DNA of 64,000 nt from an uncultured Algimonas sp. (lineage in GTDB: Bacteria; Pseudomonadota; Alphaproteobacteria; Caulobacterales; Maricaulaceae). The notes under the pieces were generated by a model, which saw only the letters and a list, made by a program, of their open reading frames with translations, was not told where the DNA came from and did no database searches. Where the stretch lies: the NCBI RefSeq assembly GCF_947498175.1, contig NZ_CANMJB010000006.1, positions 62,001-126,000 on the forward strand, read 5' to 3'. Of the stretch, positions 17,913 through 31,848 are shown in pieces. Position numbers and translations under genes: made by a program. Within the stretch, counting starts at the first letter, position 1, and the number at the start of each line of letters is the position of its first letter.

Positions 17913-18551
17913 TTAGTGCGCGGCCGACAGTCCCGCGCAGCGACGGAGACCGGCGAACTGATTGATTTTGGCCGTATGAGTATCGGGCAGCCCGATGAGA
18001 CCTAGGCTTTTGAGATCGTTCAAACGACGGCTGACGGTTTCGCGCGACAGACCGAGGTAATCCGCAATGTCGAGCCGCGACATGGGCAAGCGGACTTCGA
18101 TGCCATCGTCTTCGCTACGTCTTGCCTTGCGTTCGGCCAGCATGACGAGAAACGCGGCGACGCGGGCTTCGGATGACGTCTTTGTCAGTGTCATCATGAG
18201 ATTTTGAGCGTCTTCGATCTTGCGCCAGCTATGATTGAGGATCCGTGTGCGAAGATCGGAATCCGTTTCCAAAGCGGCGATGGAGACGCTTTGTATGCCG
18301 GCACTGGTCACGGTGATGGCACCGTCCATGTGCTCGCCATTCGGAGACAGACCGAAGAACTCGCCTTCCGTGCAAAATCCGGTGATCTGCCTCTGACTAT
18401 CTTCGAGCATGCGGAACGTCATGACGACGCCGCTATTGACGCGAAAGATCCGCGTTGCGGTGTCGCCTTGATGATAGACCGGTGTCTTGTCCGGATAGAC
18501 CCTGACGGTTCCGAGCTTGTCGACTTCCTGTGGCATGTCCTGTGTTCCCAT
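17913..18551 (-). CDS. fixK: FixK-like Crp/Fnr family transcription regulator
   Basis: 212 residues from the ATG at 18551 (GGGAAGGG just upstream); a GTG at 18569 is an alternative. The cyclic-nucleotide-binding-like beta barrel is at about 20-130 and the winged HTH RLDIADYLGLSRETVSRRL at the C-terminus. The ETVSR recognition helix is the E-SR type used by FNR/FixK for TTGAT-like half sites. The N-terminal cysteine cluster of oxygen-sensing FNR is absent, so it is FixK-like and relies on FixLJ for its oxygen signal. A FixJ-type site lies 59-66 bp upstream of the ATG. Confidence 0.88.
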   Translation of the reverse strand: MGTQDMPQEVDKLGTVRVYPDKTPVYHQGDTATRIFRVNSGVVMTFRMLEDSQRQITGFCTEGEFFGLSPNGEHMDGAITVTSAGIQSVSIAALETDSDLRTRILNHSWRKIEDAQNLMMTLTKTSSEARVAAFLVMLAERKARRSEDDGIEVRLPMSRLDIADYLGLSRETVSRRLNDLKSLGLIGLPDTHTAKINQFAGLRRCAGLSAAH

Positions 18552-18609
18552 CCCTTCCCGTGATGACACAGAGGTAAGAGGGGGAGCCGCAATAGGGGAG
18601 TTCGGTAAA

Positions 18610-18623: not shown

Positions 18624-19223
18624 CTACGCAGGGCGTCCAAGCATGAGCCTGACGAGGTCGGCAACGGACTTGATGCCGAGCTTCGACATCAGGCGAGCAC
18701 GATGTGTTTCGACCGTCCTGACCGATACGCCGAGTTCATGCGCGATCACCTTGTTGGGCCGTCCTTTGGACAGATGCAGAGCAACCTCGCGCTCGCGCGG
18801 CGTCAAAGGTGATAGGGCATCGCCGGCCGGGTCCGGATTCGGCTCATCGCTGCTCGCATGGTTGCTCTGCAACCGTTCGATCGCCGACAGGATGCGCCGC
18901 GCGACAAAGGGTTTTTCGACGAAATCGTCTGCGCCCGACTGCATGGCTTTGACCGCCAGAGGAATGTCGCCGTGACCGCTGATCATGATAACCGGCATTC
19001 TGCCAGACCGCCCCCTTACGTCGGTCAGGGTCTCCAGACCGTCACGGCCCGGCATCCTGACATCCAGTATGAGGACTGTATCGTCCAATGACGGCGCAGC
19101 CGCGATATAGGCATCGCCTGACACGAATGTCTCGACATCGTACCCGCTCGTTTCGAGCAGGAAACGCAGCGATGTCCTGACCTGGTCGTCATCGTCGACG
19201 ATATGCACGCTATGATGCGTCAT
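18624..19223 (-). CDS. fixJ: FixJ-type response regulator
   Basis: 199 residues. Receiver domain: acidic pocket VDDDD (about 9-13), phosphoacceptor Asp54 in LILDVRMPG, conserved Thr/Ser and Lys in ISGHGD and EKPF. A short linker leads to a LuxR/FixJ-type HTH (LTPREREVALHLSKGRPNK, then VSVRTVETHRARLMSKLGI). It activates fixK when phosphorylated by FixL. The ATG at 19223 overlaps the fixL 3' end by 14 bp, as is usual for fixLJ pairs. Confidence 0.93.
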   Translation of the reverse strand: MTHHSVHIVDDDDQVRTSLRFLLETSGYDVETFVSGDAYIAAAPSLDDTVLILDVRMPGRDGLETLTDVRGRSGRMPVIMISGHGDIPLAVKAMQSGADDFVEKPFVARRILSAIERLQSNHASSDEPNPDPAGDALSPLTPREREVALHLSKGRPNKVIAHELGVSVRTVETHRARLMSKLGIKSVADLVRLMLGRPA

Positions 19224-20355
19224 GAACGTCTGTTCTCGCGTGCGGCAAGGTGAAGCTGAAAGTCGCGCCGCCCTCTGCATTGGCAGTCGCCCAGATGCGC
19301 CCTCCATGCGCTCTGACAATGGAACGGCTGATGGAGAGGCCGACTCCGAGCCCAGTGGATTTCGTCGAGGTGAAAGCCGTGAAGAGATTTGCGATTGCTT
19401 CCTCTTCCAGACCCGATCCATTATCCGAGATGCTGATACGGATCATATCGGCATGGTCTTTGTCGTTACGCGCGTCGATCATCAGGCGCTTCGTCTCGCT
19501 ATCCGTCATCGCTTCGCATGCGTTGCGGATCAGATTGACGAAGACCTGCTGGATCTGAACGGCGTCGCCATGCACATAGCGCGACGGCGCCGCGATGCGG
19601 CGGACGATTTCGAGTTCCGTTTCCCTGTATTTGGACAGGCTCAGCATCAGCGAGGCATCGATGACATCGTCCAGATCCACAGTTTCGAGGATGACGTCGC
19701 CACGTTCGATGAACGTCCGCATTCGCGCGATGATGTCCGCCGCGCGATTGTTCTGTTGCAGCGCATAATCGAGCATGTCGGCCATCCGCTCGTCATTGCT
19801 CTCTGCCTGAGCGGACAGGATCTTGGCGGTTTCAATGTAGTTGGCCGTCGCGGCGAGGGGCTGGTTGATTTCATGCGCGATCGCCGTGCCCATTTCGTTC
19901 ATGGCGGCAACGCGGGACAGATGGAAGTGGCGCAATTGCAAGGCGTCGAAGGCGGCCTGCGTCTCGCGCTCCTCGGTCAGGTCGCGAACGATTCCAACGA
20001 AGAGTGTGGACCCGTTCCGGCCCATCTCTCCAACGGCCAGATGCATCGGAAAGACTTCGCCATTGTTGCGGCGGCCTTCGACCTCGCGTCCGATGCCGAT
20101 GATGCGGGTTTCGCCAGTTTCAAGATGATGACGGATATAGTCGTCATGTTCCGAACGGTAGGGTTCGGGCATGAGTATTGCGATGTTCTGACCGATGAGA
20201 TCGTCCGCGCGGTAGCCGAAAATGTCTTCCCCGGCAGGGTTTATCAAGCGGATCATGCCATCGGAATCGATGATGATGGCCGCGTCGACCAGAGTGTTCA
20301 TGACGGCGTTCAACCCGGATGTCGGCAGGCTGGAGGTCATCTCTTCCATATCCAT
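19210..20355 (-). CDS. fixL: FixL oxygen-sensing haem PAS histidine kinase
   Basis: 381 residues, soluble (no membrane helix). The PAS domain (about 15-125) carries the haem-FixL signature: proximal histidine His70 in RSEHDDYI and distal arginine Arg90 in RIIGIGR, with the same 20-residue spacing as His200/Arg220 of Bradyrhizobium FixL. FPMHLAVGEM follows. The H-box is AIAHEINQPLAA with His161, then the N-box NLIRNACEAM and G-boxes DNGSGLEEE and GLGVGLSISRSIV. Oxygen bound to haem should shut the kinase off. It is divergent from the receiver gene across a 103-bp region with a FixK-like palindrome. Confidence 0.94.
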   Translation of the reverse strand: MDMEEMTSSLPTSGLNAVMNTLVDAAIIIDSDGMIRLINPAGEDIFGYRADDLIGQNIAILMPEPYRSEHDDYIRHHLETGETRIIGIGREVEGRRNNGEVFPMHLAVGEMGRNGSTLFVGIVRDLTEERETQAAFDALQLRHFHLSRVAAMNEMGTAIAHEINQPLAATANYIETAKILSAQAESNDERMADMLDYALQQNNRAADIIARMRTFIERGDVILETVDLDDVIDASLMLSLSKYRETELEIVRRIAAPSRYVHGDAVQIQQVFVNLIRNACEAMTDSETKRLMIDARNDKDHADMIRISISDNGSGLEEEAIANLFTAFTSTKSTGLGVGLSISRSIVRAHGGRIWATANAEGGATFSFTLPHARTDVHDAS

Positions 20356-20388: not shown

Positions 20389-20402
20389 GTGATGCATGTC
20401 AC
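20389..20402. promoter_or_regulatory. FNR/FixK-like palindrome GTGAT-GCAT-GTCAC
   Basis: A 5-4-5 palindrome with the architecture of the FNR/FixK box (TTGAT-N4-ATCAA) but with outer G/C bases. It sits between fixL and the divergent receiver gene, 33 bp before fixL and 56 bp before the receiver gene. The same pattern recurs upstream of ccoN and of the cupin-hemN operon, and with one mismatch before ccoG. Confidence 0.6.
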
Positions 20403-20458
20403 AATCGAATTCCGATATGGGGCATATCGAAACGGGACTTGCAAGGTCCTAAAACCCT

Positions 20459-20842
20459 ATGTCGCTCACTGCTGCCCAGCCCATAGTCTATATGATCGAC
20501 CGCCAGTCGGCGGCGATGGCCTCGATGCGCCCGTTGTTAGAGGCCAGCGGCCATCCTGTCATGCAGGTCGAGGACGCAGACAGCTTCTCTCATGATGTCC
20601 TGTCGCGGCGGACCGTCCGGACATGCGATGCGTTGATCCTGGATTTGGATGCAGGCGAGCCCGATCTGTATCGGTTGCTCAACCTCGTCATGCATAAGCG
20701 CAATCGTCCCAAAATCGTTCTTATGGCCGGATCGGACGCGCCGATCGGCGATATGGACAGTTTCACGCAGGATCGTCTGCATGTTCTTCGCCATCCTGCC
20801 ACGCCGAGTCAGTTGATGGATGTCCTGGATGCGGACTCGTGA
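20459..20842 (+). CDS. orphan receiver-like protein (FixT-like candidate)
   Basis: 127 residues, one CheY-like domain and no output domain. The phosphoacceptor strand is kept as ALILDLDAG, but the acidic pocket is reduced to YMIDRQS and the conserved Lys-Pro is replaced by RHP (VLRHPATPSQL), so phosphotransfer is doubtful. A single receiver gene divergent from fixL behind a FixK-like box resembles FixT, the feedback inhibitor of FixL kinase in Caulobacter. The FixT described there carries a cysteine-bound Fe-S cluster; this protein has only one cysteine (in RTCDAL). Its stop overlaps the GTG of the next gene. Could also be a degenerate regulator unrelated to FixT. Confidence 0.6.
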   Translation: MSLTAAQPIVYMIDRQSAAMASMRPLLEASGHPVMQVEDADSFSHDVLSRRTVRTCDALILDLDAGEPDLYRLLNLVMHKRNRPKIVLMAGSDAPIGDMDSFTQDRLHVLRHPATPSQLMDVLDADS

Positions 20843-21078
20843 GTTCGGGAGCGCTCGGTGCGGGACTGATCGTGGCGAGTTTGGTCTTGCCGCACATACC
20901 GAGCACCGAAGGCTCCAACTTCATCGAAGCGAGGCTGTGCGCCTCCGGACGGACGATCCGGATCCCGTTGCCAGGTGGTGGAGACCCGGAACCGGAAGCG
21001 CCCATGCCGTGTCATGCGGTGTGTTCGCGTGACGATCAGGATCCTGTGGAACGCCATAAACCCAAGTCGCTTCCTTAA
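20839..21078 (+). CDS. small cysteine-containing protein with N-terminal hydrophobic segment
   Basis: 79 residues, not recognised. The GTG start overlaps the receiver stop as GTGA, so it is translationally coupled. Residues 5-18 are hydrophobic (ALGAGLIVASLVLP), a possible export signal or anchor, followed by a C-A-S-G-R-T-I-R-I-P-L strand and a MPCHAVCSRDD motif: three cysteines and a histidine that could bind metal. It converges on ccoS with 2 bp between the stops. Position suggests co-regulation with microaerobic genes; function unknown. Confidence 0.6.
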   Translation: MSSGALGAGLIVASLVLPHIPSTEGSNFIEARLCASGRTIRIPLPGGGDPEPEAPMPCHAVCSRDDQDPVERHKPKSLP

Positions 21079-21080
21079 GA

Positions 21081-21233
21081 TCAGAGCAACGGAAAATCGT
21101 CGTCTTCGAGCATGCGCTCTGCATCGCCCGATGTGTCGTCGAACTGTCCTGACTTAAGCGCCCAGACGAACGTCGCGAGCGCGGATGCACCCAATATCAG
21201 TGCGATCGGAATAAGCCATAATAGGGACGTCAT
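21081..21233 (-). CDS. ccoS: cbb3-type cytochrome oxidase assembly protein CcoS
   Basis: 50 residues, found by reading the region directly. MTSLLWLIPIALILGASAL is a single membrane helix followed by TFVWALKSGQFDD, the CcoS signature, and an acidic tail (RMLEDDDFPLL). CcoS is needed for cofactor insertion into cbb3 oxidase, with CcoI. The ATG overlaps the ccoI stop (ATGA at 21230-21233). Last gene of ccoNOQPGHIS. Confidence 0.93.
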   Translation of the reverse strand: MTSLLWLIPIALILGASALATFVWALKSGQFDDTSGDAERMLEDDDFPLL

Positions 21234-23428
21234 GGGGCGGCGGCCGGGGTCGCGAAAAACCGGCCGGGATGGTCCGGACCTTCGTAGCTTTCACCAACGC
21301 GGTGCATTCTGAGCGCGTTGAGAATGACGATCAAGGAAGACCCGGACATGGCAATCGCCGCAATGAGAGGCGTGACATGACCCGTGACGGCCAAGGGCAC
21401 CGCCAGCATGTTGTAGATGATGGCAAACCCGAAATTCTGCATCACTTTCTTCTTGGCGGCTCTTGCCACTTCGATGGCAAAGGGCAGGCCCGAAAGTGTA
21501 TCGCCTTGCAAGACGATGTCGGAAGCCGATCTTGATATTTCCGTTCCGCTAGCCAGGGCGGCGGATGCATCTGCGTGAGCCAGGGCGGGCGCATCGTTTA
21601 TGCCGTCACCGACCATCAGCACAGGCGTCTGCTCTGCCTGCAATTCGGATATACGGGTCAACTTCTCTTCGGGGCGCATTCTGCCGCGATGGTGATCGAT
21701 ACCGACCTGCTGGGCAATGTCCGCAACTGTCTGCAAGGCATCGCCTGATAATATCGAGGTCCGCAAACCCATGTCGTGAAGAGCTTCGACAGTCGAACGC
21801 GCTTCGGGTCTGACGGGATCGTGCATCTCGATACGAAAAGCGGGCGTGTGGTCGACTTTCGCCCAGAGACCGGCCTCGTCCTGCATATTGGAGTCCACGA
21901 AGCGCGCCTGTCCGAGCCTGACATTGTGGCCATCGATCTGGCCGAGGATACCGCGACCGGCTGTTTCCTCAACGTCGGCCACATCGGCGGCTCCGGCGAA
22001 TGTATGTAGCGCTTTCGACGCCGGATGAATGGATTGCCGCGCCAGGGCCGCAACCAAACCCAACGTATGTTCGGGTATCGCAGAGACATCGGCCGTGACC
22101 TGTCCCTGCGTCAGTGTGCCCGTTTTGTCGAAGACGACATGGCGGACCGTCGAAAGCCGCTCCAATGCGTCGCCGGAGCGGATCAGGACGCCCTTGGCAA
22201 ACAGGCGGCCTACGGCCACCACTTGCACAGCTGGAACAGCCAAGCCCAAAGCGCAAGGACAGGTGATGATGAGAACGGCGATGGCATTGATGATCGCTGT
22301 TCGCGGCGTTCCTCCGAAGAGTATCCATCCTAGGAAAGTCAGGAGGGCGAGCGTGTGGACGACCGGGACATAGGCGCGTGCCGCGCGATCGGCGAGCCGC
22401 ACATAACGGGCTTGGACCTGCTGTCCGGCTTCGACCATGGCGGCGATGTCGGCAAGGAAGGAGTCCTCGCTCGCCTTCCTGATTTCGATCGTGATCGGCG
22501 CGCCCTCATTGATCGTTCCGGAATAGACGGCATCTCCCGGTTTGACTGACTGAAGAGCCGTTTCGCCCGTAATCAGCGCCGTATCTAGTTGAGTCGTGCC
22601 GGACAGGATGACGCCATCAGCCGGCAAACGGTCGCCGGATGCGACCATGACGACATCACCCGGAACCAGCTCGGTCGCCGGCACGACTACATAGTTTCCA
22701 TCGTCACCGAGGCAATGAGCGTTGCGGACTTGCAGCGAGGCCAGCTGTCGCGCGGCCAAACCCGTTCGCGCTCTCAGCCGCGCATCCAGGAACCGCCCGA
22801 TAAGCAGGAGAAAAATCAGCATCAGGGCGGCATCGAAATATGTATGCGGGTGTTCATGCCAGGTTTCCCAGACACTCAATCCGCACGCCAGCAAGATCGC
22901 AAGCGATATGGGAACGTCCATATTGGTGTTGCGGGACTTCAAGGCTGTCCAAGCCGACTTGAAGAAAGGGCGACCTGAAAAAAGAGCGATGGGCAAGGCG
23001 ATGGCGGCGGACAGCCAATGCAAGAGCGACTTCGTCGCCGCGCTCATCTCTCCGCTGCCCGACCAGACTGCGACGGATAGCATCATCACGTTCATGAAAC
23101 CGAATGCGGCAACCGCCATGGCAAGGAGAAGAGACCGAGTGTGCGCGCTGTCCCGGTCTTCCAAGTCGTCAGGGATATAGGGTCCGGCTGTGAACCCCAT
23201 TCGTTCAAGCTGTCTAGCGAAACCATCGGCTTGGCCGGCATGCCCGTCCCAAGAAAGGTGAAGCCGCGACGTCGAGAGATTCATCCGCGCTTCGCGAACG
23301 TCGGGCAGGGCTTTCAGTCCGGTTTCGATCTTGGCCAGACAGCCGCCGCACCGCGCCCCGCCGATGACAAGATCGATCGATGCGTTCTCACCGGACTGCC
23401 GGACGAAAGAGGAGAGGGCGGCAGTCAC
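21230..23428 (-). CDS. ccoI: copper-translocating P1B-type ATPase CcoI/FixI
   Basis: 732 residues when started at the GTG at 23428, which overlaps the ccoH stop as GTGA. An N-terminal heavy-metal-associated domain holds the metal pair C27-x-x-C30 (GARCGGCLAK). About eight membrane helices; the transport motif CPC is in IITCPCALGL; phosphorylation site DKTGTLT; hinge GDGINDAPAL. It exports copper for the CuB centre of cbb3 oxidase. Flanked by ccoH and ccoS in the standard GHIS order. A longer open frame from 23497 would overlap ccoH by about 70 bp and is unlikely. Confidence 0.95.
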   Translation of the reverse strand: MTAALSSFVRQSGENASIDLVIGGARCGGCLAKIETGLKALPDVREARMNLSTSRLHLSWDGHAGQADGFARQLERMGFTAGPYIPDDLEDRDSAHTRSLLLAMAVAAFGFMNVMMLSVAVWSGSGEMSAATKSLLHWLSAAIALPIALFSGRPFFKSAWTALKSRNTNMDVPISLAILLACGLSVWETWHEHPHTYFDAALMLIFLLLIGRFLDARLRARTGLAARQLASLQVRNAHCLGDDGNYVVVPATELVPGDVVMVASGDRLPADGVILSGTTQLDTALITGETALQSVKPGDAVYSGTINEGAPITIEIRKASEDSFLADIAAMVEAGQQVQARYVRLADRAARAYVPVVHTLALLTFLGWILFGGTPRTAIINAIAVLIITCPCALGLAVPAVQVVAVGRLFAKGVLIRSGDALERLSTVRHVVFDKTGTLTQGQVTADVSAIPEHTLGLVAALARQSIHPASKALHTFAGAADVADVEETAGRGILGQIDGHNVRLGQARFVDSNMQDEAGLWAKVDHTPAFRIEMHDPVRPEARSTVEALHDMGLRTSILSGDALQTVADIAQQVGIDHHRGRMRPEEKLTRISELQAEQTPVLMVGDGINDAPALAHADASAALASGTEISRSASDIVLQGDTLSGLPFAIEVARAAKKKVMQNFGFAIIYNMLAVPLAVTGHVTPLIAAIAMSGSSLIVILNALRMHRVGESYEGPDHPGRFFATPAAAP

Positions 23429-23934
23429 CGCAGATCGAGATCGTAGGTGAAGTGAAAGCGGTCGTCGCCGCTTACGGCGTCCGCAAGCAGTGTCCACTGT
23501 CCGTGAAGTCCGGACAGGTCCGCCCGGGCAGCCCCATTTCCATCGACTTCGAAATTGAGAGGCTGGTCCAAAGTGGAATCGACCGGATGGCGAAGTCGCC
23601 CGCTGTAAACCAGACCATACAGGGTTTGCCCACGCGGCCCCGTGACTTTCACGATCAAGGCATGGTCAGCCGTTTCGCCAGTGACGTTCACGGCCGCCTT
23701 CCAGCCCAAAGAAGACTGTTCGGCGCGTTCGGCCAACGTCTTGTTGTAATCGATGCCTTGACGATAGGACCTTTCGACATCTTCTCCGCGGAACGATATC
23801 ACGGCCAGCGTGGTGAAAACGATGCTCGACACGATGATGATGCCGAAGAAGCCAACCAGTATTGCAAGGACGTGGCGGCCTGTCAGCTCTCGTCCAGATC
23901 GGCTTTCCTCATCGTGCAAAGCTTCACTCGCCAT
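23425..23934 (-). CDS. ccoH: cbb3 oxidase assembly protein CcoH/FixH
   Basis: 169 residues. A single N-terminal membrane helix (about 22-46, HVLAILVGFFGIIIVSSIVF) is followed by the RGEDVERSYRQGIDYNKTLAE block and a periplasmic beta domain, the FixH pattern. It takes part in late assembly of the cbb3 complex. Lies between ccoG (9-bp gap) and ccoI (GTGA overlap). Confidence 0.92.
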   Translation of the reverse strand: MASEALHDEESRSGRELTGRHVLAILVGFFGIIIVSSIVFTTLAVISFRGEDVERSYRQGIDYNKTLAERAEQSSLGWKAAVNVTGETADHALIVKVTGPRGQTLYGLVYSGRLRHPVDSTLDQPLNFEVDGNGAARADLSGLHGQWTLLADAVSGDDRFHFTYDLDLR

Positions 23935-23943
23935 GACCGCCTC

Positions 23944-25431
23944 CTACTCTCCTGCGACGAAAACGGTCGGACGGTTCGCCGTCGTATCGCTATCGGCATC
24001 TTCCAATTCGAAGACAAATTCTGCGCGCCCGTCCAGCATGTCCAGATCATCTTCTATGACGATGACCCGGAAATCGATGGTTTCGTCGGCGGGCACTTGT
24101 AGGGACAATCCGGTTTGACCAGCAACTTTGACAATGGGACTTGGCAGACCGACGGCGCTGAGCTTCAATGTGCGTTCGGCCGTAGCTTTGTTCATGACTT
24201 TGATCGTGTAGCCGTTCTGGACGCTTCCGTCCGACATTCGGACGAAGTTCGGTTGCCGGTCCCGGACGACGTTCAAGTCCAAAGTCGTTCGAGCCAACAA
24301 GGCGTAAAGCATCGTGAATCCGACAGCTGCGAAAACGGCGGCATAGATGACCGTTCGGGAGCGAATGAGCCGATAGCGCGATTTGTCGCCCTGCATTCGA
24401 CGCACGACGTTCGCGTCCGTGTCGTAGGCGATCAGATTGGGCGGCCGGTCGACCTTGGCCATGATCCCGTTGCAGGCATCGATGCATAGCGCGCACCCGA
24501 TGCATTCCAATTGCAATCCGTCGCGAATGTCTATGCCGACCGGGCATACGGCGACGCATTGGCGGCAGTCGATGCAGTCGCCTCGGCCTTCCCACGTCGC
24601 GCCTTTCTTGTGCGGGCCGCGCGGTTCGCCCCTGTCGTAGCGATAGGTGACGTTGAGCGCCTCTTCGTCGATCAGCGCGGCCTGGATGCGCGGCCATGGA
24701 CACATATAGGTGCACACTTGTTCGCGCATGAAACCGGCCAAGGAATAGGTCGTAAAGGTCAGGATCGCAGCGAAGACATAGGATGTCATCGGCGCATGGC
24801 CGAGAAAAAAATCCCGGGCGATGGTTGGTGCATCATGGAAGTAGAGGATCCATGCCCCGCCGGTGAACAGGGCGATCAGCAGCCAGACGGCATGTTTGGC
24901 GACCTTCTTGTAGACTTTGGACAAGGTCCAAGGCGCCCGGTCGAGCTTGATCCGCGCATTGCGATCGCCCTCGAAGAACCGTTCGACATATATGAACAAA
25001 TCCGTCCAGATCGTCTGGGGGCAGGCATAACCGCACCAGACACGACCGAAAAGCGACGTCACTAGGAAAAGCCCAAGCGCAGCCAGGATGAGCAATCCGG
25101 TGATGAAATAGATTTCCTGCGGCCAGATCTCGATGAAGAAGAAATAAAACCGGGCGTTTTCGAAGTCCACGAGGACGGCTTGATCCGGCTGACCCGGACC
25201 CCGGTCCCATCTGACCCAAGGCAGAATGTAATAGATGCCGAGTAGAACGATGAGCGCAATCCATTTGAGATTTCGGAAAAACCCGTGCGCCAGTTTCGGG
25301 TAGATCTGTTCGCGGCTTTTATAAAGACTGACCGGTGTGGACGGTGTCGGGCTCGGTGCCCGGGACCGCATCACGCCCGGAGCGGCCTCGCGGCGCGGTT
25401 CCGGATTGGTTTTATCGATCAGAGTCGTCAT
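23944..25431 (-). CDS. ccoG: cbb3 oxidase accessory ferredoxin-like protein CcoG/FixG/RdxA
   Basis: 495 residues with about five membrane helices, a bacterial-ferredoxin type region carrying CIDCRQCVAVCPVGIDIR and CIGCALCIDACNGIM (two 4Fe-4S clusters), and a C-terminal Ig-like periplasmic domain. GRVWCGYACPQTIW and VCTYMCPWPRIQ are the conserved cysteine segments in the membrane part. CcoG acts in copper reduction/delivery for cbb3 biogenesis. It starts 60 bp after ccoP, and a degenerate FixK-like palindrome lies in that gap, so it may have its own promoter. Confidence 0.95.
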   Translation of the reverse strand: MTTLIDKTNPEPRREAAPGVMRSRAPSPTPSTPVSLYKSREQIYPKLAHGFFRNLKWIALIVLLGIYYILPWVRWDRGPGQPDQAVLVDFENARFYFFFIEIWPQEIYFITGLLILAALGLFLVTSLFGRVWCGYACPQTIWTDLFIYVERFFEGDRNARIKLDRAPWTLSKVYKKVAKHAVWLLIALFTGGAWILYFHDAPTIARDFFLGHAPMTSYVFAAILTFTTYSLAGFMREQVCTYMCPWPRIQAALIDEEALNVTYRYDRGEPRGPHKKGATWEGRGDCIDCRQCVAVCPVGIDIRDGLQLECIGCALCIDACNGIMAKVDRPPNLIAYDTDANVVRRMQGDKSRYRLIRSRTVIYAAVFAAVGFTMLYALLARTTLDLNVVRDRQPNFVRMSDGSVQNGYTIKVMNKATAERTLKLSAVGLPSPIVKVAGQTGLSLQVPADETIDFRVIVIEDDLDMLDGRAEFVFELEDADSDTTANRPTVFVAGE

Positions 25432-25467
25432 CGGGTGCCGGATTTAGGGCAGGGGCTCCCTATCGAT

Positions 25468-25481
25468 GTGTCCTGCGTCAC
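25468..25481. promoter_or_regulatory. degenerate FixK-like palindrome GTGTC-CTGC-GTCAC
   Basis: One mismatch from the GTGAC-N4-GTCAC pattern seen upstream of ccoN and the cupin-hemN genes. It sits in the ccoP-ccoG gap, centred about 43 bp before the ccoG ATG. Might give ccoGHIS its own control; weaker evidence than the three full sites. Confidence 0.35.
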
Positions 25482-25491
25482 AGGCCGCGGG

Positions 25492-26529
25492 CTAGGGCTG
25501 CATTCCCGGCTTTTGGGGGTCGGCGCCGCTCGGTTGCGGCGCAGACGGTTCGCCGCCGCCCAGCGCGTGGACGTAGACCGCCAAGGCTGTAATGGTTTCA
25601 GGATCAAGACGCTCATGCCAGTTGGGCATGACGCCTTGACGGCCACCATAAAGCGTTTCCACGATATCCTCGCGTTCTCCGCCATACAGCCATTCGGCAT
25701 CCGTGAGGTTCGGTGCGCCCTGGCTGCGATCTCCCATTGCGTCCGCGCCGTGGCAGGATGCGCAATTGTCGGCGAAAAGCGCGCGACCGCGACCGCTTGC
25801 GTCCGGATCGACACCGCGGCCGGAAAAGGCCAGCAGATATTCCGTCAGGTCGCGGATCTGGTCGCGGTCCAGCAACCCGTCTCGGCCGAAAGCCTGCATG
25901 AGATTGAACCGCGTATCTTCGTGTGCCGCGCGGATGCCGACTTCGAGTGTATGCCGGATATCTTCGAACGACCCGCCCCAGATCCAGACATCGTCGTTCA
26001 GATTTGGATAGCCTTTGAAGCCTTGGCCGCCTGCGCCGTGGCAGGTCGCGCAGTTATCTCCAAAGGCGGACTTGCCGGCGGCCATGGCGAAGCGGAACAA
26101 CTCCGGGTCGCCAGTGATGTATTCGAGGTTCGCGTCCGCGAGACGGTCGGCCAATAGTGCCCGTTCCATGCGGAGTTCGGCGATCTCCACGGAGACATCC
26201 TCGCGATCGGACTTGTCGAGTATGCCGTCGAAATAGCTGTCGATCAAAGGTATGGATGGCATCAGCAGCATGTAGACGGCCGAAAAGGCGATCGTGGCGT
26301 AGAAGATGCCGAGCCACCAACGCGGCATGGGCGTATTCAGCTCCTCGATCCCATCCCAGCTATGACCGGTCGTATATTGTCCCGTCGGTTCGTCGAAGCG
26401 TGGGTCGTGACCGCCATGCGCGTCATTGGGCAGCGTTGGCTCTAGGTTTGGATCGACTCCGCGCTCCACCATCTTCTTCGCACCATCGCCAGCGTCGGGC
26501 TGGGATGGCGTTTTGTTTTCATCGCTCAT
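25492..26529 (-). CDS. ccoP: cbb3-type cytochrome c oxidase subunit III (dihaem)
   Basis: 345 residues. One membrane helix at about 71-93 (WWLGIFYATIAFSAVYMLL) after the conserved DGIEELNTPMPRWW block, then two cytochrome c domains with CATCH (160-164) and CASCH (256-260). It passes electrons from soluble cytochrome c to CcoO/CcoN. The start overlaps the ccoQ end by 11 bp. Confidence 0.96.
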   Translation of the reverse strand: MSDENKTPSQPDAGDGAKKMVERGVDPNLEPTLPNDAHGGHDPRFDEPTGQYTTGHSWDGIEELNTPMPRWWLGIFYATIAFSAVYMLLMPSIPLIDSYFDGILDKSDREDVSVEIAELRMERALLADRLADANLEYITGDPELFRFAMAAGKSAFGDNCATCHGAGGQGFKGYPNLNDDVWIWGGSFEDIRHTLEVGIRAAHEDTRFNLMQAFGRDGLLDRDQIRDLTEYLLAFSGRGVDPDASGRGRALFADNCASCHGADAMGDRSQGAPNLTDAEWLYGGEREDIVETLYGGRQGVMPNWHERLDPETITALAVYVHALGGGEPSAPQPSGADPQKPGMQP

Positions 26530-26710
26530 TATGTGTCTCCCCGTCGCTCAGCTCGGGATTGTCGTCGGTTTCAAGGGGCAGGTGCGCAGCCCGGTCGAAC
26601 CGGGCCTTGTTCTTGGGCCAGAGGGCGTAGAAAATCGCTCCGATGAACACGGCCGTGAACGCGACCGTCCCCCCGACCTTGATGATATGCGCGATCTGAT
26701 CGTAACTCAT
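26519..26710 (-). CDS. ccoQ: cbb3-type oxidase subunit IV (CcoQ)
   Basis: 63 residues with one membrane helix (about 13-30) followed by YALWPKNKARFDRAAHLPLETDD, the usual CcoQ tail. It stabilises the CcoP-CcoNO interaction. Lies between ccoO (6-bp gap) and ccoP (11-bp overlap). Confidence 0.9.
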   Translation of the reverse strand: MSYDQIAHIIKVGGTVAFTAVFIGAIFYALWPKNKARFDRAAHLPLETDDNPELSDGETHNER

Positions 26711-26716
26711 GGGCCG

Positions 26717-27454
26717 CTACCTCAGATTTTCGTCGAGATCGGCTTCGAACTCGTTGAAGTCCACGAGCGTGCCGAGCATTTGCAGATAGGCGATCAGCGC
26801 GTCCATCTCGGTCACCTTGTCGGCGTCGCCGTCGAAGTCCCGGATGACTGCGTTCGGATAGCGCGCGACGAAACCGTCATAGTCGTCCGCGAACTCGTCG
26901 AGCTGAGTCGTCACGTCGGATTTGGCCGACGCGATCATCTCGTCCGTGTAAGGCACGCCCAACGTGGCGTTGACGGCCAGATGTCGAGCGATGTCATCAT
27001 ATTCCAGTTCGGCTTCGGCGAGGAACTTGTAGGGCGGCATTATGGATTCCGGAACGACGGATCGCGGGTCGATCAAATGGGTCTTGTGCCACTCGTCGGA
27101 ATACTTGCCGCCCACCCGGGCCAGATCGGGTCCGGTTCGCTTCGACCCCCATTGGAAAGGCCGATCATACATGGACTCTGCGGCCAGGCTGTAATGCCCG
27201 TAGCGTTCGACCTCGTCGCGCAAGGGGCGGACCATCTGCGAATGACAGACGTAGCAGCCTTCACGGATGTAGATGTTGCGACCTGCCAGCTCCAGCGGCG
27301 TGTAGGGCCGCATGCCTTCGACTTCCTCGATCGTGGAGTCGATGTAGAAGAGCGGTGCGATCTCCACCAGTCCTCCGACCGATACGACACCGATGATGCC
27401 GAGCAGGAGCGGGAAGGACTTTTTCTCGAGATATTTGTGAATCTTGTAGAACAT
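26717..27454 (-). CDS. ccoO: cbb3-type cytochrome c oxidase subunit II (monohaem)
   Basis: 245 residues. N-terminal membrane anchor (about 15-38), then the haem c site CYVCH (67-71) inside the conserved [18 protein letters not shown] block, and [15 protein letters not shown] further on. Membrane-bound cytochrome c subunit of the high-affinity oxidase. The start follows ccoN by 5 bp. Confidence 0.96.
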
Positions 27455-27459
27455 CGATC

Positions 27460-29175
27460 TTACTCCGCCGGAGCGAGGGTTGGCGGGACGGGCGAGACCG
27501 CAGGCGGCACCGGTTTCAAGCTGCCATCGTCACGCAGCGACACGGCATTGCCGCGACCCAGGATGGTCATGCGGATGTTGTAGGCCATGATGAATGTGCC
27601 GAGCAGGAACATCAGACCGCCGATCGTCCGGATGACGTAGAAGACATGCAAAGGACTGACAGTCTCGATGAAGCTGTATTCGAGGAACCCGAGTTCGGTG
27701 TAGGCGCGCCAATTGAGACCCTGGCTGATCCCAGCGCCCCACATGGCGGTGATGTAGAAGACGATGCCGAGCGTCGCGAGCCAGAAGTGCCATTCGACCA
27801 GTCGCGTGGAGTAGAGCTCGCGTTTCTTCCACAGCCACGGAACCAGGCAGTAGAGTGCGCCGAAGGTCACGAAGCCGTTCCAGCCCAGCGCCCCGGAGTG
27901 GACATGGCCGATGCCCCAATCCGTGTAGTGCGACAGCGCATTGACGTAGCGCACAGAGAGGAGGGGGCCTTCGAATGTCGCCATGCCGTAGAAGGCCACG
28001 GACACGACCAGCATGCGCAGCACAGGGTCTGTACGAAGCTTGTCCCATGCGCCCTGCAAGGTCATCAGGCCGTTGATCATGCCGCCCCAGCTCGGCATCC
28101 ACAGCATCAGCGAGAACACCATGCCCAAGGTCTGTGTCCATTGCGGCAAGGCCGTATAGTGAAGATGGTGCGGACCGGCCCAGATGTAGATGAAGATCAC
28201 GGCCCAGAAGTGGACGATGGAAAGCTTGTAGCTCCATACGGGACGGTTCGCCCGCTTCGGGATGAAGTAGTACATGATTGCGAGGAAGCCGGCAGTCAGG
28301 AAGAAGCCGACCGCATTGTGGCCGTACCACCACTGCGTCATGGCATCCTGCACACCTGCATAGACCCCGTAGGATTTGGCACTTGTGATGGCGACCGGCA
28401 AAGCCAGGTTGTTGACCACGTGCAGGATCGCGACCGTGACGATGAAGGCCAGATAGAACCAGTTGGCCACATAGATGTGCGGCTCCTTGCGCCGCGCGAG
28501 CGTCATCAGGAAGACGAGCAGATAGGCGACCCAGACGATGGTCAGCCAGAGGTCGACATACCATTCCGGCTCGGCATACTCTTTTCCACCCGTCACGCCC
28601 ATGAGATAGCCGGTCGCGGCCAGCACGATGAAGAGCTGGTAGCCCCAGAACACGAACCAGGGCCAATAACCGCCAGCCAACCGCACACGGGACGTTCTTT
28701 GAACGACGTAGAAACTGGTCGCGATCAGTGCATTGCCGCCAAAGGCAAAAATCACGGCCGATGTGTGAAGAGGCCTTAGGCGCCCGAAATTGGTCCAGGC
28801 CCCTTCGAAGTAGAAGATTTCAGGCCAAGCCAGTTGGGCCGCAATGACGACGCCGACGGTCATTCCGGCGATGCCCCAGAACGTTGTTGCGACAACCCCG
28901 TATTTGACGATCGTATCGGCGTACCGAGAATGATCGATGACCGGGGTTTCCGACCCCATGCGCCCGACGATATAGATGATGCCGCCGATCAAGGCGGCGA
29001 GCATGATCCCTGCCTGCGCTTTCATCTGAACACCGCCGAACGTGCCGTAGCCAGGACCGGTCGCCGCGAACATCGCCCAGATCGCGACCGGTATCAGGAT
29101 GAAGAGCATCGGCCACATGGACCCATCCGTCTTGAGGTGCGGATTGGTGGGTGCGGTTGTCTCAAGGGTGCTCAT
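27460..29175 (-). CDS. ccoN: cbb3-type cytochrome c oxidase subunit I
   Basis: 571 residues from the ATG at 29175 (GAAGAG upstream); a TTG two codons earlier is less likely. About 12-14 membrane helices with the haem and CuB histidines: [29 protein letters not shown] and [15 protein letters not shown], then [12 protein letters not shown]. Haem-copper oxygen-reducing subunit of the high-affinity cbb3 oxidase. First gene of ccoNOQP-GHIS. The 146-bp upstream region holds a FixK-like palindrome (29312-29325). Confidence 0.97.
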
Positions 29176-29311
29176 TGGCAACTCTTCTGCGTCGGTCTGT
29201 TATCTGCGCGCGGGCGCATTGCGGTATGCCGGGTCAGTCCAAGTTTTCGACAAGGGGATTCGCGGACCCGCCCCGGCTCCTGCGTGATGAATTCTTTCGT
29301 GGTGCAGCGAA

Positions 29312-29325
29312 GTGACAGAGGTCAC
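29312..29325. promoter_or_regulatory. FNR/FixK-like palindrome GTGAC-AGAG-GTCAC upstream of ccoN
   Basis: Perfect 5-4-5 inverted repeat 137-150 bp before the ccoN start, touching the hemN stop. Same architecture as the boxes at 20389 and 31678. The distance would fit a promoter with a roughly 95-nt leader if the activator sits near -41. Confidence 0.6.
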
Positions 29326-30680
29326 ACAGCCGCCGAGAACCGGGCCGGTCGTTGTTTCAGGTAATCGTCCAGACGCGACGCCAGCGTACGGACGAAGGGC
29401 CGCCCCGTCTCCGTCACCCGGAAGCCCGTCTCGACCGCTTCGAACAGTCCGTCTTCATCGCGATGTGCGATCATGGCGGCTTTCGCGAGAACGCCATCGG
29501 CATGGGCGCCGTGGTCTTGGCGAAGTCGCGTGGCGTCCAGCGCGAACCCGCACATGAGTTGCTCGATCGCAGAAGCTGTCGCGCGGTCACGCGCCGAGAT
29601 GGTGGCACCGCGTTCGATGGGTAGCCGCCCGTCTTCCAAGGTCCGGTCATAGGCTTGCACGGTCTTGACGTTTTGGGCGTAGCCCTGCGCGAACTGGCTG
29701 ATCGATGATGTGCCGAGGCCGATCAGGGTCTTGCATGGGTCTGCCGTATAGCCCTGGAAGTTCCGGCGCAGGCGCCCTTTCGAGAGCGCCACGCAAAGTG
29801 CATCCGCCGGCTTGGCGAAATGGTCGATGCCGATTGCGGCGTAGCCGGAGCGTTGGAGGGCCGCCGCGGCGATCCGCGATTGCCGGAAACGGCTGAGCGC
29901 ACCAGGCAGGGAGGCTTCGTCAATCATCGTCTGGTGCCGCTTGATCCATGGGACATGCGCATAACCGAACAGAGCGACGCGGTCCGGGCTCAGCGAAACA
30001 ACCTGTTCGATCGTTCGCCGCACCGTGTCATCGGTCTGGAAAGGCAGACCGTATAGCGCATCGATGTTGACGGATTCCACGCCCCCATGCCGTAACGCGT
30101 CGATGATCTCGCGCGTCTTGGCGAAGCTCTGGGGTCTGTTGATGGCGGACTGAACGCGCGCATCGAAATCCTGCACGCCGAGGCTCGCCCGTGTCACGCC
30201 GAAGGCACAGAAGCTTTCCACATCTTCGGCGATCATGTCCGTCGGGTCGAATTCGAGGCTGATCTCCGCATCCGGTTCGATCTCGAAGGCTGCATCCAGA
30301 GTGGAGCGGAGCCGGCGAAGATCCTGTGGCCGCAAGAGGCTGGGCGACCCGCCGCCCAGATGCAGTTGGCGGACGAGCTGGCGCCGTCCGATCGTGTCGC
30401 TCACAAGCGCGATCTCGCGGTACAGGCTATCCAGATAGCGGCGGACCGGATCGTAGCGCTTCACATGCTGTGTATGGCAGCCGCAGAACCAGCAGAGCCT
30501 GTCGCAGAACGGGACATGGATATAGAGCGAGACCGCTTCATCCGCAGGCAGTGCCGACATCCAGCTGGAGACGTTTTGGGAATTCACCGCATCCGTGAAA
30601 TTGGGCGCTGTCGGATAGCTGGTATAGCGCGGCACGGGGGCGGAATAATCGAGGATCAACTCGGCCGGAAAGGTAGTCAT
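29322..30680 (-). CDS. hemN: oxygen-independent coproporphyrinogen III oxidase
   Basis: 452 residues, radical SAM enzyme. The cluster motif CDRLCWFCGC (C-x3-C-x2-C-x-C) follows the HVPF segment at about residue 55, then LHLGGGSPSLL (SAM contact) and the HemN_C domain. It decarboxylates coproporphyrinogen III without oxygen, supplying haem for cbb3 oxidase when oxygen is low. Start is 9 bp after the cupin-like gene, so the two are probably co-transcribed from the promoter at about 31.7 kb. Confidence 0.95.
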   Translation of the reverse strand: MTTFPAELILDYSAPVPRYTSYPTAPNFTDAVNSQNVSSWMSALPADEAVSLYIHVPFCDRLCWFCGCHTQHVKRYDPVRRYLDSLYREIALVSDTIGRRQLVRQLHLGGGSPSLLRPQDLRRLRSTLDAAFEIEPDAEISLEFDPTDMIAEDVESFCAFGVTRASLGVQDFDARVQSAINRPQSFAKTREIIDALRHGGVESVNIDALYGLPFQTDDTVRRTIEQVVSLSPDRVALFGYAHVPWIKRHQTMIDEASLPGALSRFRQSRIAAAALQRSGYAAIGIDHFAKPADALCVALSKGRLRRNFQGYTADPCKTLIGLGTSSISQFAQGYAQNVKTVQAYDRTLEDGRLPIERGATISARDRATASAIEQLMCGFALDATRLRQDHGAHADGVLAKAAMIAHRDEDGLFEAVETGFRVTETGRPFVRTLASRLDDYLKQRPARFSAAV

Positions 30681-30689
30681 GTCGGAACT

Positions 30690-31625
30690 CTAGAAGTTGC
30701 GAATATAAGCGGGTACGGGGGCCAGGATCGACGGCTTGCCGGGATCCAGCCTGAATCGGACGAAGTCGTCGCGGATGTGTGCCCGATGCGCGCCCAATTT
30801 GCGTAGTGCATGGCCGCATATCGCGCGGGTGTAGCGGCTTGCTCGCCCAGCCCCGGCCCAACTCGGCGAGCCGCCGAGATGGCGCCGTACCAGGCCGTTG
30901 AAATACATGGCGCCATTGCGCACCGCGCTCTCGCGCGTCGTGCATTCCATCACCATGGATATGCAGTAGCCTTGGTTTTCAACCCGATGCGGCGACGTAT
31001 GGGGCCAGCAGACCAGCGTGTCGTCGGGCAGGTCGAACACTTGTGCCGCTTGATCATACTCCGGCCGATAAGGCACATCCTGATCACGTTCCCCTAGAAC
31101 GATGGCTTCATAGGCTTCGTCCGGCAGGAACGCCTCCGTCCTTGGATAGACGAAGACGCGTTTGTGACCGCGGACGTGCCACAGAAGGGTTTGGGTCGGA
31201 TCACAATGATAAGGAACCTTGGCGGCCGGAGAGGAAATCAGAATTCCGCCCCGCCGATTGTATTGGCGGACTTTTTGTCCAGTCCGTTCGCACAGATCGG
31301 AATAGCATCGATCGAGAAGCGGGCTGTAGGCCGGGTCCAGGTTCATGGCTTCACGGATATTGATCCAGATTGCGCCGGATTTTGCGATCTCGACCAAATC
31401 TGATCCTGTCGTTTGTCCGGGGTCGACCGTGCAGTGCCGATCCGGAAATTCGGGGTCGTACATCATTGTGCAGACATCGATCAGATGTCTTGGATGCCGG
31501 TCCAGAAGCGTAGCGAGGGCGTCGTCGGAAAATAGTCCCGACGCCGCGAGCGTGTGTGGAAATGTCTGGACCCTGGACCCGTAATCCTGCCGGTCACGAT
31601 CCGACCAATGACCCAAGATGTTCAT
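30690..31625 (-). CDS. cupin-like / JmjC-type protein co-transcribed with hemN
   Basis: 311 residues. A double-stranded beta-helix core is suggested by the spaced facial triad His140-x-Asp142 (PYHCDPTQTLLWHVRG) and His213 (TSPHRVEN), with the HVRGHKRVFVYP strand seen in cupin_8/JmjC proteins. This resembles 2-oxoglutarate-Fe(II) oxygenases, though catalysis is inferred. It lies directly before hemN (9-bp gap), and its own upstream region holds a perfect FixK-like box 53 bp from the start. An oxygen-consuming enzyme family in an oxygen-limited operon is unexpected. No further function is assigned. Confidence 0.7.
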   Translation of the reverse strand: MNILGHWSDRDRQDYGSRVQTFPHTLAASGLFSDDALATLLDRHPRHLIDVCTMMYDPEFPDRHCTVDPGQTTGSDLVEIAKSGAIWINIREAMNLDPAYSPLLDRCYSDLCERTGQKVRQYNRRGGILISSPAAKVPYHCDPTQTLLWHVRGHKRVFVYPRTEAFLPDEAYEAIVLGERDQDVPYRPEYDQAAQVFDLPDDTLVCWPHTSPHRVENQGYCISMVMECTTRESAVRNGAMYFNGLVRRHLGGSPSWAGAGRASRYTRAICGHALRKLGAHRAHIRDDFVRFRLDPGKPSILAPVPAYIRNF

Positions 31626-31677
31626 GCCGAAACTCCGATTGCAACGGAGCCTCTGTCAGCAAACCGGTCTTGGCAGG

Positions 31678-31691
31678 GTGACGCCGGTCAC
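31678..31691. promoter_or_regulatory. FNR/FixK-like palindrome GTGAC-GCCG-GTCAC upstream of cupin-hemN
   Basis: Perfect 5-4-5 inverted repeat centred about 60 bp before the cupin-like start and about 92 bp before a divergent 23-codon frame. Third full copy of the pattern in the window, all next to microaerobic genes. Confidence 0.6.
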
Positions 31692-31776: not shown

Positions 31777-31848
31777 ATGATCGAAACGTTCAAAAACATC
31801 ATCTTGGCGGTTCTGGTCTTCTTCCTTGCCTTGCTGCTGGGACTTTAG
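31777..31848 (+). CDS. possible 23-residue membrane peptide
   Basis: The frame MIETFKNIILAVLVFFLALLLG ends in L and a TAG. After a short charged start it is entirely hydrophobic, long enough for one membrane helix. TATAAC lies 6 bp before the ATG, so transcription would begin at or next to the start codon and the message could be leaderless; no Shine-Dalgarno is visible. It faces away from the cupin-hemN operon across the FixK-like box. May be chance; conservation would decide. Confidence 0.3.
   Translation: MIETFKNIILAVLVFFLALLLGL

Follow-up and report, generated by a model that had tools for sequence, protein, structure and literature searches.

A FixK regulon probably re-keyed from TTGA to GTGA boxes in an uncultured Algimonas sp. 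and close relatives

The recognition helix of Escherichia coli CRP reads RETVGR and its box is TGTGA-N6-TCACA. Among CRP/FNR regulators generally, the published pairing is of residue R180 with G, at position three of the motif, and of E181 with A (PMC1274295). CRP, HcpR and others follow this R180-G rule, which was first noted for HcpR (PMC545781). A TTGAC/GTGA switch is described within delta-proteobacterial HcpR, where R180 goes with GTGA and S or P with TTGAC-N4-GTCAA, the change falling between related genera (PMC1274295, PMC545781). For Alphaproteobacteria, published surveys depict an essentially invariant FixK/FNR box. The targets of FNR, FixK and DNR are called virtually identical (PMC2908626), and a survey of 65 FixK/FnrN-type proteins from 43 genomes reports highly conserved DNA-contacting residues without group-specific change (PMC4999443). 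In PMC2908626, GTGAC appears in a single row of a table of Rhodobacter sites. Here we analyze a 64-kb stretch of an uncultured Algimonas sp. (hereafter the window; G000:C6:62001-126000, from a 2.85-Mb genome in 26 contigs), which encodes a fixLJ-fixK cluster together with a cbb3 oxidase.

The locus resembles the FixK/FnrN regulons by its FixLJ-FixK cluster, cbb3 oxidase, hemN, FixIH and receiver genes and by a 14-bp palindrome with an N4 center, and differs from them by an arginine at residue 180 and by GTGA boxes in place of the published TTGA-N6-TCAA (PMC4999443, PMC2908626). It also recalls HcpR, with the difference that the regulator that switches is FixK, not one of hybrid-cluster-protein genes, and that the direction is TTGA to GTGA (PMC1274295, PMC545781). 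Judging from residues and boxes, this FixK regulon has very probably been re-keyed, helix and boxes having undergone matching changes. Under low oxygen, FixL-FixJ would raise FixK, as in relatives, and FixK would bind and activate its target promoters through the palindrome. In this genus, RETVSR stands in place of IETVSR; the arginine thereby placed at the R180 position would contact the G, and we propose that FixK for this reason reads GTGAC rather than TTGAC or TTGAT. The boxes of fixL/receiver, ccoNOP, ccoG-fixHI and cupin-hemN would provide the matching G/C outer bases. Although the R180-G rule was already known, a case of it in FixK in which several promoters have changed jointly appears to be new, and none of the open-licence papers listed in our searches bears a title describing a GTGA-reading FixK. 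In such genomes, standard FNR/FixK motif scans would miss the low-oxygen regulon, and close relatives with both box types at the same promoters offer a natural experiment on a regulator and its sites changing together.

FixK scores over the cut-offs of PF13545, PF00325 and PF00027 and thus has a CRP-type helix-turn-helix (HTH) and a cyclic-nucleotide-type N-terminal domain. Its linkage to fixLJ and its orthology place it in FixK, and its closest solved structure is FixK2 (4i2o, E 2e-20). The best NCBIfam model is the Caulobacter FixK equivalog NF050806, which was built for one genus and whose cut-off of 300 bits is not reached (106 bits). With two cysteines in the whole protein, FixK lacks the FNR-type four-cysteine cluster, in keeping with the definition excerpted from PMC2908626. 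An alignment sets LSRETVSR against tletvsr of FixK2 and tvetisr of FNR, and the arginine, which adjoins the conserved glutamate, corresponds to the CRP R180 position. The initial annotation rightly noted that FixK keeps an E-SR helix; it overlooked this arginine and left the change of half site unexplained. Compared with the CRP-type pattern R180-E181-xx-G184-R185, R, E and R are present, with serine at 184. FixK thus shares with E. coli CRP the R180 and E181 equivalents and a GTGA half site, and differs from it by this serine, by its location in a fixLJ cluster and by its affinity to FixK2. Residue 180 was read in 62 FixK-like proteins, a subset of all matches, taken from the loci fetched in searches of the order, family and class: it is I (32 proteins), T (12), V (9), R (4), F (3), or L (2). 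In a phylogeny of 69 rows, the four R-type proteins (from our genome and from those designated G163, G103, and G093) form one clade (98/99), nested inside the family's own FixK clade together with six I-type genomes of the same family (G209, G222, G228, G073, G193, and G173; 98/100). The 62 proteins, read across order and class, include no R-type FixK of independent origin.

CRP-family regulators were counted over the Pfam cut-off. By this count, our genome, in which six weaker HTH matches fall below the cut-off, has eight, with E at position 181 in FixK only and V in the other seven. Five of the six I-type relatives (G173, G193, G228, G222, and G073) have paralogues with a RETVSR or RETISR helix, and none besides FixK was found in the four R-type genomes; G103 retains two other E181-type proteins (IETVSR and FETVSR). 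G163 has two CRP-family HTH proteins, FixK and one with VVHISR, neither with a TTGA-type helix despite the 34 TTGA palindromes of that genome.

The window contains exact GTGAYNNNNGTCAC matches at boxes 1, 2, and 3 (table 1) and nowhere else. The symmetric pattern GTGAY-N4-RTCAC has three perfect occurrences in 64 kb, against a mean of 0.27 in 400 dinucleotide shuffles, none of which reached three. As an observation, these palindromes are confirmed. Symmetric variants with outer T, A, or C have no match in the window, which accordingly lacks TTGAY-N4-RTCAA, the established FixK pattern, and has GTGA boxes at the target genes. Box 1, of the GTGAT...GTCAC form, lies 33 bp from fixL and 56 bp from the receiver gene, and the 33-bp spacing to fixL is kept in the three R-type genomes concerned (ours, G163, and G103). 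The fourth site is imperfect. With one mismatch allowed, the pattern occurs at eight places, the three perfect ones included, versus 7.08 expected, which is the chance level; support for this site comes from its conservation at constant spacing and not from the count, as TGTGACGSAGGACACA stands 35–36 bp upstream of ccoG in all three R-type genomes with the cluster (ours, G163, and G103). It forms a conserved island in DNA otherwise poorly conserved in G163 and G103, and sits in G103 within the 3' end of ccoP. The initial annotation had located all four sites correctly, including the mismatch in the fourth, and had described them as intergenic; this is true of all but box 2, which shares 4 bases with the end of hemN, among them its stop codon.

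In the relatives, the type of box follows the type of residue. The ccoN promoter carries GTGA in the three R-type genomes that have ccoN (ours, G163, and G103) and TTGA in all six I-type genomes of the family, in agreement with the pairing of R180 with G at the third position. The receiver promoter has GTGA in the same three R-type genomes, 50–56 bp upstream of the gene, and TTGA at 52–55 bp in both I-type genomes possessing the gene (G193 and Robiginitomaculum antarcticum); no receiver gene was found between fixJ and fixK in G209, G222, G228, and G073. For cupin-hemN, GTGA is located at 52 bp in two of two R-type genomes (ours and G103) and TTGA in one of three I-type genomes (G209, 56 bp). 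No cupin box exists within 350 bp in G228 and G193, although G228 has one at about 389 bp, and the cupin gene was not found in the 13.5 kb beyond ccoN in G163. R. antarcticum is the closest named relative among the 80 CcoG loci fetched (L031, 72% identity); its FixK and ccoN box are identical to those of G173, and the two were counted once. Sixty-four of these loci have ccoN and at least 150 bp upstream of it, 14 lacking ccoN and 2 starting at the locus edge. Within 350 bp of ccoN, these 64 promoters from elsewhere in the class, R. antarcticum included, show TTGA-N6-TCAA in 32 cases, GTGA-N6-TCAC in none, and neither in 32. At base five, 22 of the 24 R-type half sites examined have C, as do most of the I-type ones listed; only the outer base changes between the two types of boxes. 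Unlike the E. coli CRP box, the R-type boxes have no conserved outer T before GTGA (9/24 half sites). The comparison of homologous promoters, which the initial annotation had called for, bears out its assignment of the boxes to a FixK-type regulon, with fix/cco/hem boxes at matching places in G163 and G103, and its view of the shift as lineage-specific, the six I-type genomes having TTGA at ccoN. As no FixK match at 1e-25 is listed in 14 further genomes of the same genus, the sample for the switch consists of three genomes.

Several observations weigh against this reading. All R-type proteins descend from one event, so that residue and box agree once in evolution. E. coli CRP has glycine at position 184, where FixK keeps serine, and in FNR/CRP swap experiments a change at position 184 was reportedly needed as well. 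G093 (L143) has an R-type FixK (FRETVSR) and FixJ, yet a search for ccoN at a threshold of E 1e-60 found none in it, and predicted genes contain 11 of its 12 GTGA places; for these two reasons it lends no support. The GTGAY form shows no clear enrichment across the genome, with 16 places versus about 12.0 expected (genome-wide expectations are scaled from the window shuffle means and assume that the genome shares the window composition). Finally, G163 contains 34 TTGAYNNNNRTCAA TTGA palindromes (control 3), which are not accounted for; none falls within the 102 kb of G163 sequence scanned. The other R-type genomes have few such palindromes (control counts in parentheses): 6 (2) in ours, which is at chance level (about 8.5 expected), 4 (1) in G103, and 9 (6) in G093, whereas the six I-type genomes have 18–41.

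The 34 palindromes of G163 and the retained serine would also fit a FixK whose specificity was relaxed rather than switched, reading both T and G, with boxes that drifted to G in GC-rich genomes. The composition of the window (61% GC versus 46–52% at the I-type loci) indeed favors G and C. We nevertheless regard this as very improbable: in all eight perfect R-type boxes at three promoters, both outer bases are changed, with no mixed TTGA/GTGA box there in the three genomes; the G163 loci, merely 54–56% GC, have GTGA boxes nonetheless; and the change in FixK falls on exactly the residue tied to that base. GTGA-N6-TCAC being the classic CRP core, the boxes might instead be bound by another CRP-type protein whose helix reads GTGA, such as the RETVSR/RETISR paralogues of the I-type relatives, leaving FixK uninvolved. 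This is very improbable given that the other seven CRP-family proteins over the Pfam cut-off in our genome lack E181 and R180, that the sole other one of G163 has VVHISR, and that the boxes occupy fix-cluster promoters where relatives carry FixK-type TTGA boxes.

The near-chance GTGAY count, and a conserved site best read as a BlaI operator (see below), would be expected if the palindromes were chance matches, operators of other families, or RNA hairpins. Such an origin is extremely unlikely for the fix/cco/hem boxes, which hold their place and spacing in relatives while the surroundings diverge and which are replaced by TTGA boxes at the orthologous I-type promoters. For the re-keying of FixK itself, a possible route, which we put forward tentatively as somewhat less than an even bet, is that FixK occupied a vacant GTGA channel: in relatives, separate CRP-type paralogues with RETVSR/RETISR helices would read the GTGA box, and their loss would have freed GTGA, after which FixK would have gained R180 and its core promoters would have switched together. 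The distribution of the paralogues fits, and does not show, GTGA having become free. If true, an entire regulon would have been re-keyed in nature by little more than a single residue, without cross-talk.

The genome-wide scan recovered GTGAYNNNNRTCAC at 16 places, with none for the reversed control. Half of them (8, versus about 2.4 expected; Poisson P about 0.003, calculated by hand) are of the GTGAC-N4-GTCAC form, which is enriched, unlike the GTGAY form as a whole, for which enrichment is not clear. Seven of these eight lie outside genes or at gene edges: ccoN, cupin-hemN, ompW/truB, uspA/astA, FUSC/DUF4212-actP, blaI/lepA, and zapA-6S/iclR; the remaining one is inside a predicted outer-membrane protein gene. 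Several of the 16 places fall within genes such as dnaB and mdh, and one is likely a BlaI operator. We therefore rejected the motif alone as a genome-wide predictor of oxygen-responsive genes, the use first envisaged for it; it needs to be combined with the GTGAC form, an intergenic position, and conservation.

Among genes not named before as part of the regulon, the receiver and the cupin-like gene have a conserved box. The box ahead of ompW, uspA, and the DUF4212-actP operon was found here, but the corresponding gene lacks it in those relatives in which the gene was located and its upstream region read. For ompW, it lies 99 bp upstream; the gene was found in four of nine relatives, without a box within 350 bp save for a TTGA at 197 bp in G193. 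For uspA, it lies 120 bp upstream, and the orthologue was found in one of nine relatives (G103), without a box; in G163, GTGACCGCTGTCAC lies about 58 bp ahead of a different Usp-family gene. In other Alphaproteobacteria, ompW and uspA have been described as subject to FNR-type regulation (PMC2908626), and both are candidates for further FixK targets on the basis of their upstream sequences.

Two places were rejected as targets. The blaI/lepA site (C5:69046), though conserved in G103 and G163, adjoins a Penicillinase_R-type repressor gene, and two tandem GTGACATATGTCAC precede another BlaI-family gene in G103; this palindrome is likely a BlaI operator resembling the FixK pattern. GTGACA-N2-YGTCAC-like palindromes precede BlaI-family genes at L011:1501-1514, L158:1501-1514, L216:1553-1566, and L205:1588-1624, in loci with M56 peptidase and lepA neighbors, and the palindrome of L205 is doubled in tandem. 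From the zapA/6S RNA site (C3:192099), no gene runs in an obvious way. At L004:1182-1340, a 6S RNA (Rfam RF00013) follows zapA and is itself followed by a GTGAC-N4-GTCAC palindrome at 1501-1514.

Table 1. Genes and predicted FixK boxes of the window
Feature	Coordinates	Strand	Remarks
fixK, CRP/FNR-family regulator	17913..18569	-	directly after fixL-fixJ
LSRETVSR recognition-helix codons	18027..18050	-	R at CRP R180 position = codon 18042-18044
fixJ, response regulator	18624..19223	-	FixJ is the top NCBIfam model, with a score under its cut-off
fixL, PAS histidine kinase	19210..20355	-	PAS domain matches FixL haem-PAS structures (1dp6, E 1.2e-35)
FixK box 1 (predicted), GTGATGCATGTCAC	20389..20402		between divergent fixL and receiver genes
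Lone receiver-like protein, FixT-like by position	20459..20842	+	divergent from fixL
fixI-type copper P-type ATPase	21230..23497	-	
fixH	23425..23934	-	
ccoG (fixG)	23944..25431	-	
FixK box 4 (predicted, imperfect), GTGACGCAGGACAC	25468..25481	-	36 bp ahead of ccoG
ccoP	25492..26529	-	
ccoO	26717..27454	-	orthologues syntenic in relatives
ccoN	27460..29175	-	TIGR00780 over cut-off; ATG start conserved
FixK box 2 (predicted), GTGACAGAGGTCAC	29312..29325		136 bp ahead of ccoN ATG
hemN, oxygen-independent coproporphyrinogen III oxidase	29322..30680	-	TIGR00538 over cut-off
Cupin-like protein	30690..31625	-	directly before hemN; sub-threshold Cupin_8, E 0.0089
FixK box 3 (predicted), GTGACGCCGGTCAC	31678..31691		52 bp ahead of cupin-hemN pair

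Two starts in table 1 differ from those of the mechanical open reading frames: that of fixJ (MTHHSVH) was picked by eye in a frame running from 19421, and the mechanical frame of ccoN starts with TTG at 29181. The receiver-like protein matches Response_reg below the Pfam cut-off (E 0.024), and its gene is conserved in G163, G103, G193, and R. antarcticum. Its position suggests, by analogy, a FixT-like feedback inhibitor of FixL. Like Caulobacter FixT, it is a lone receiver associated with FixLJ, here sharing its FixK box with fixL; it has a single cysteine, compared with the four-cysteine Fe-S motif of Caulobacter FixT (PMC7078487). Orthologues of the cupin-like protein are encoded in G103, G209, G228, and G193, in part adjoining ccoN. 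By eye, a possible hydrophobic peptide of 23 residues (MIETFKNIILAVLVFFLALLLGL; 31777-31848, plus strand) was read in the interval separating the cupin promoter from the next gene.

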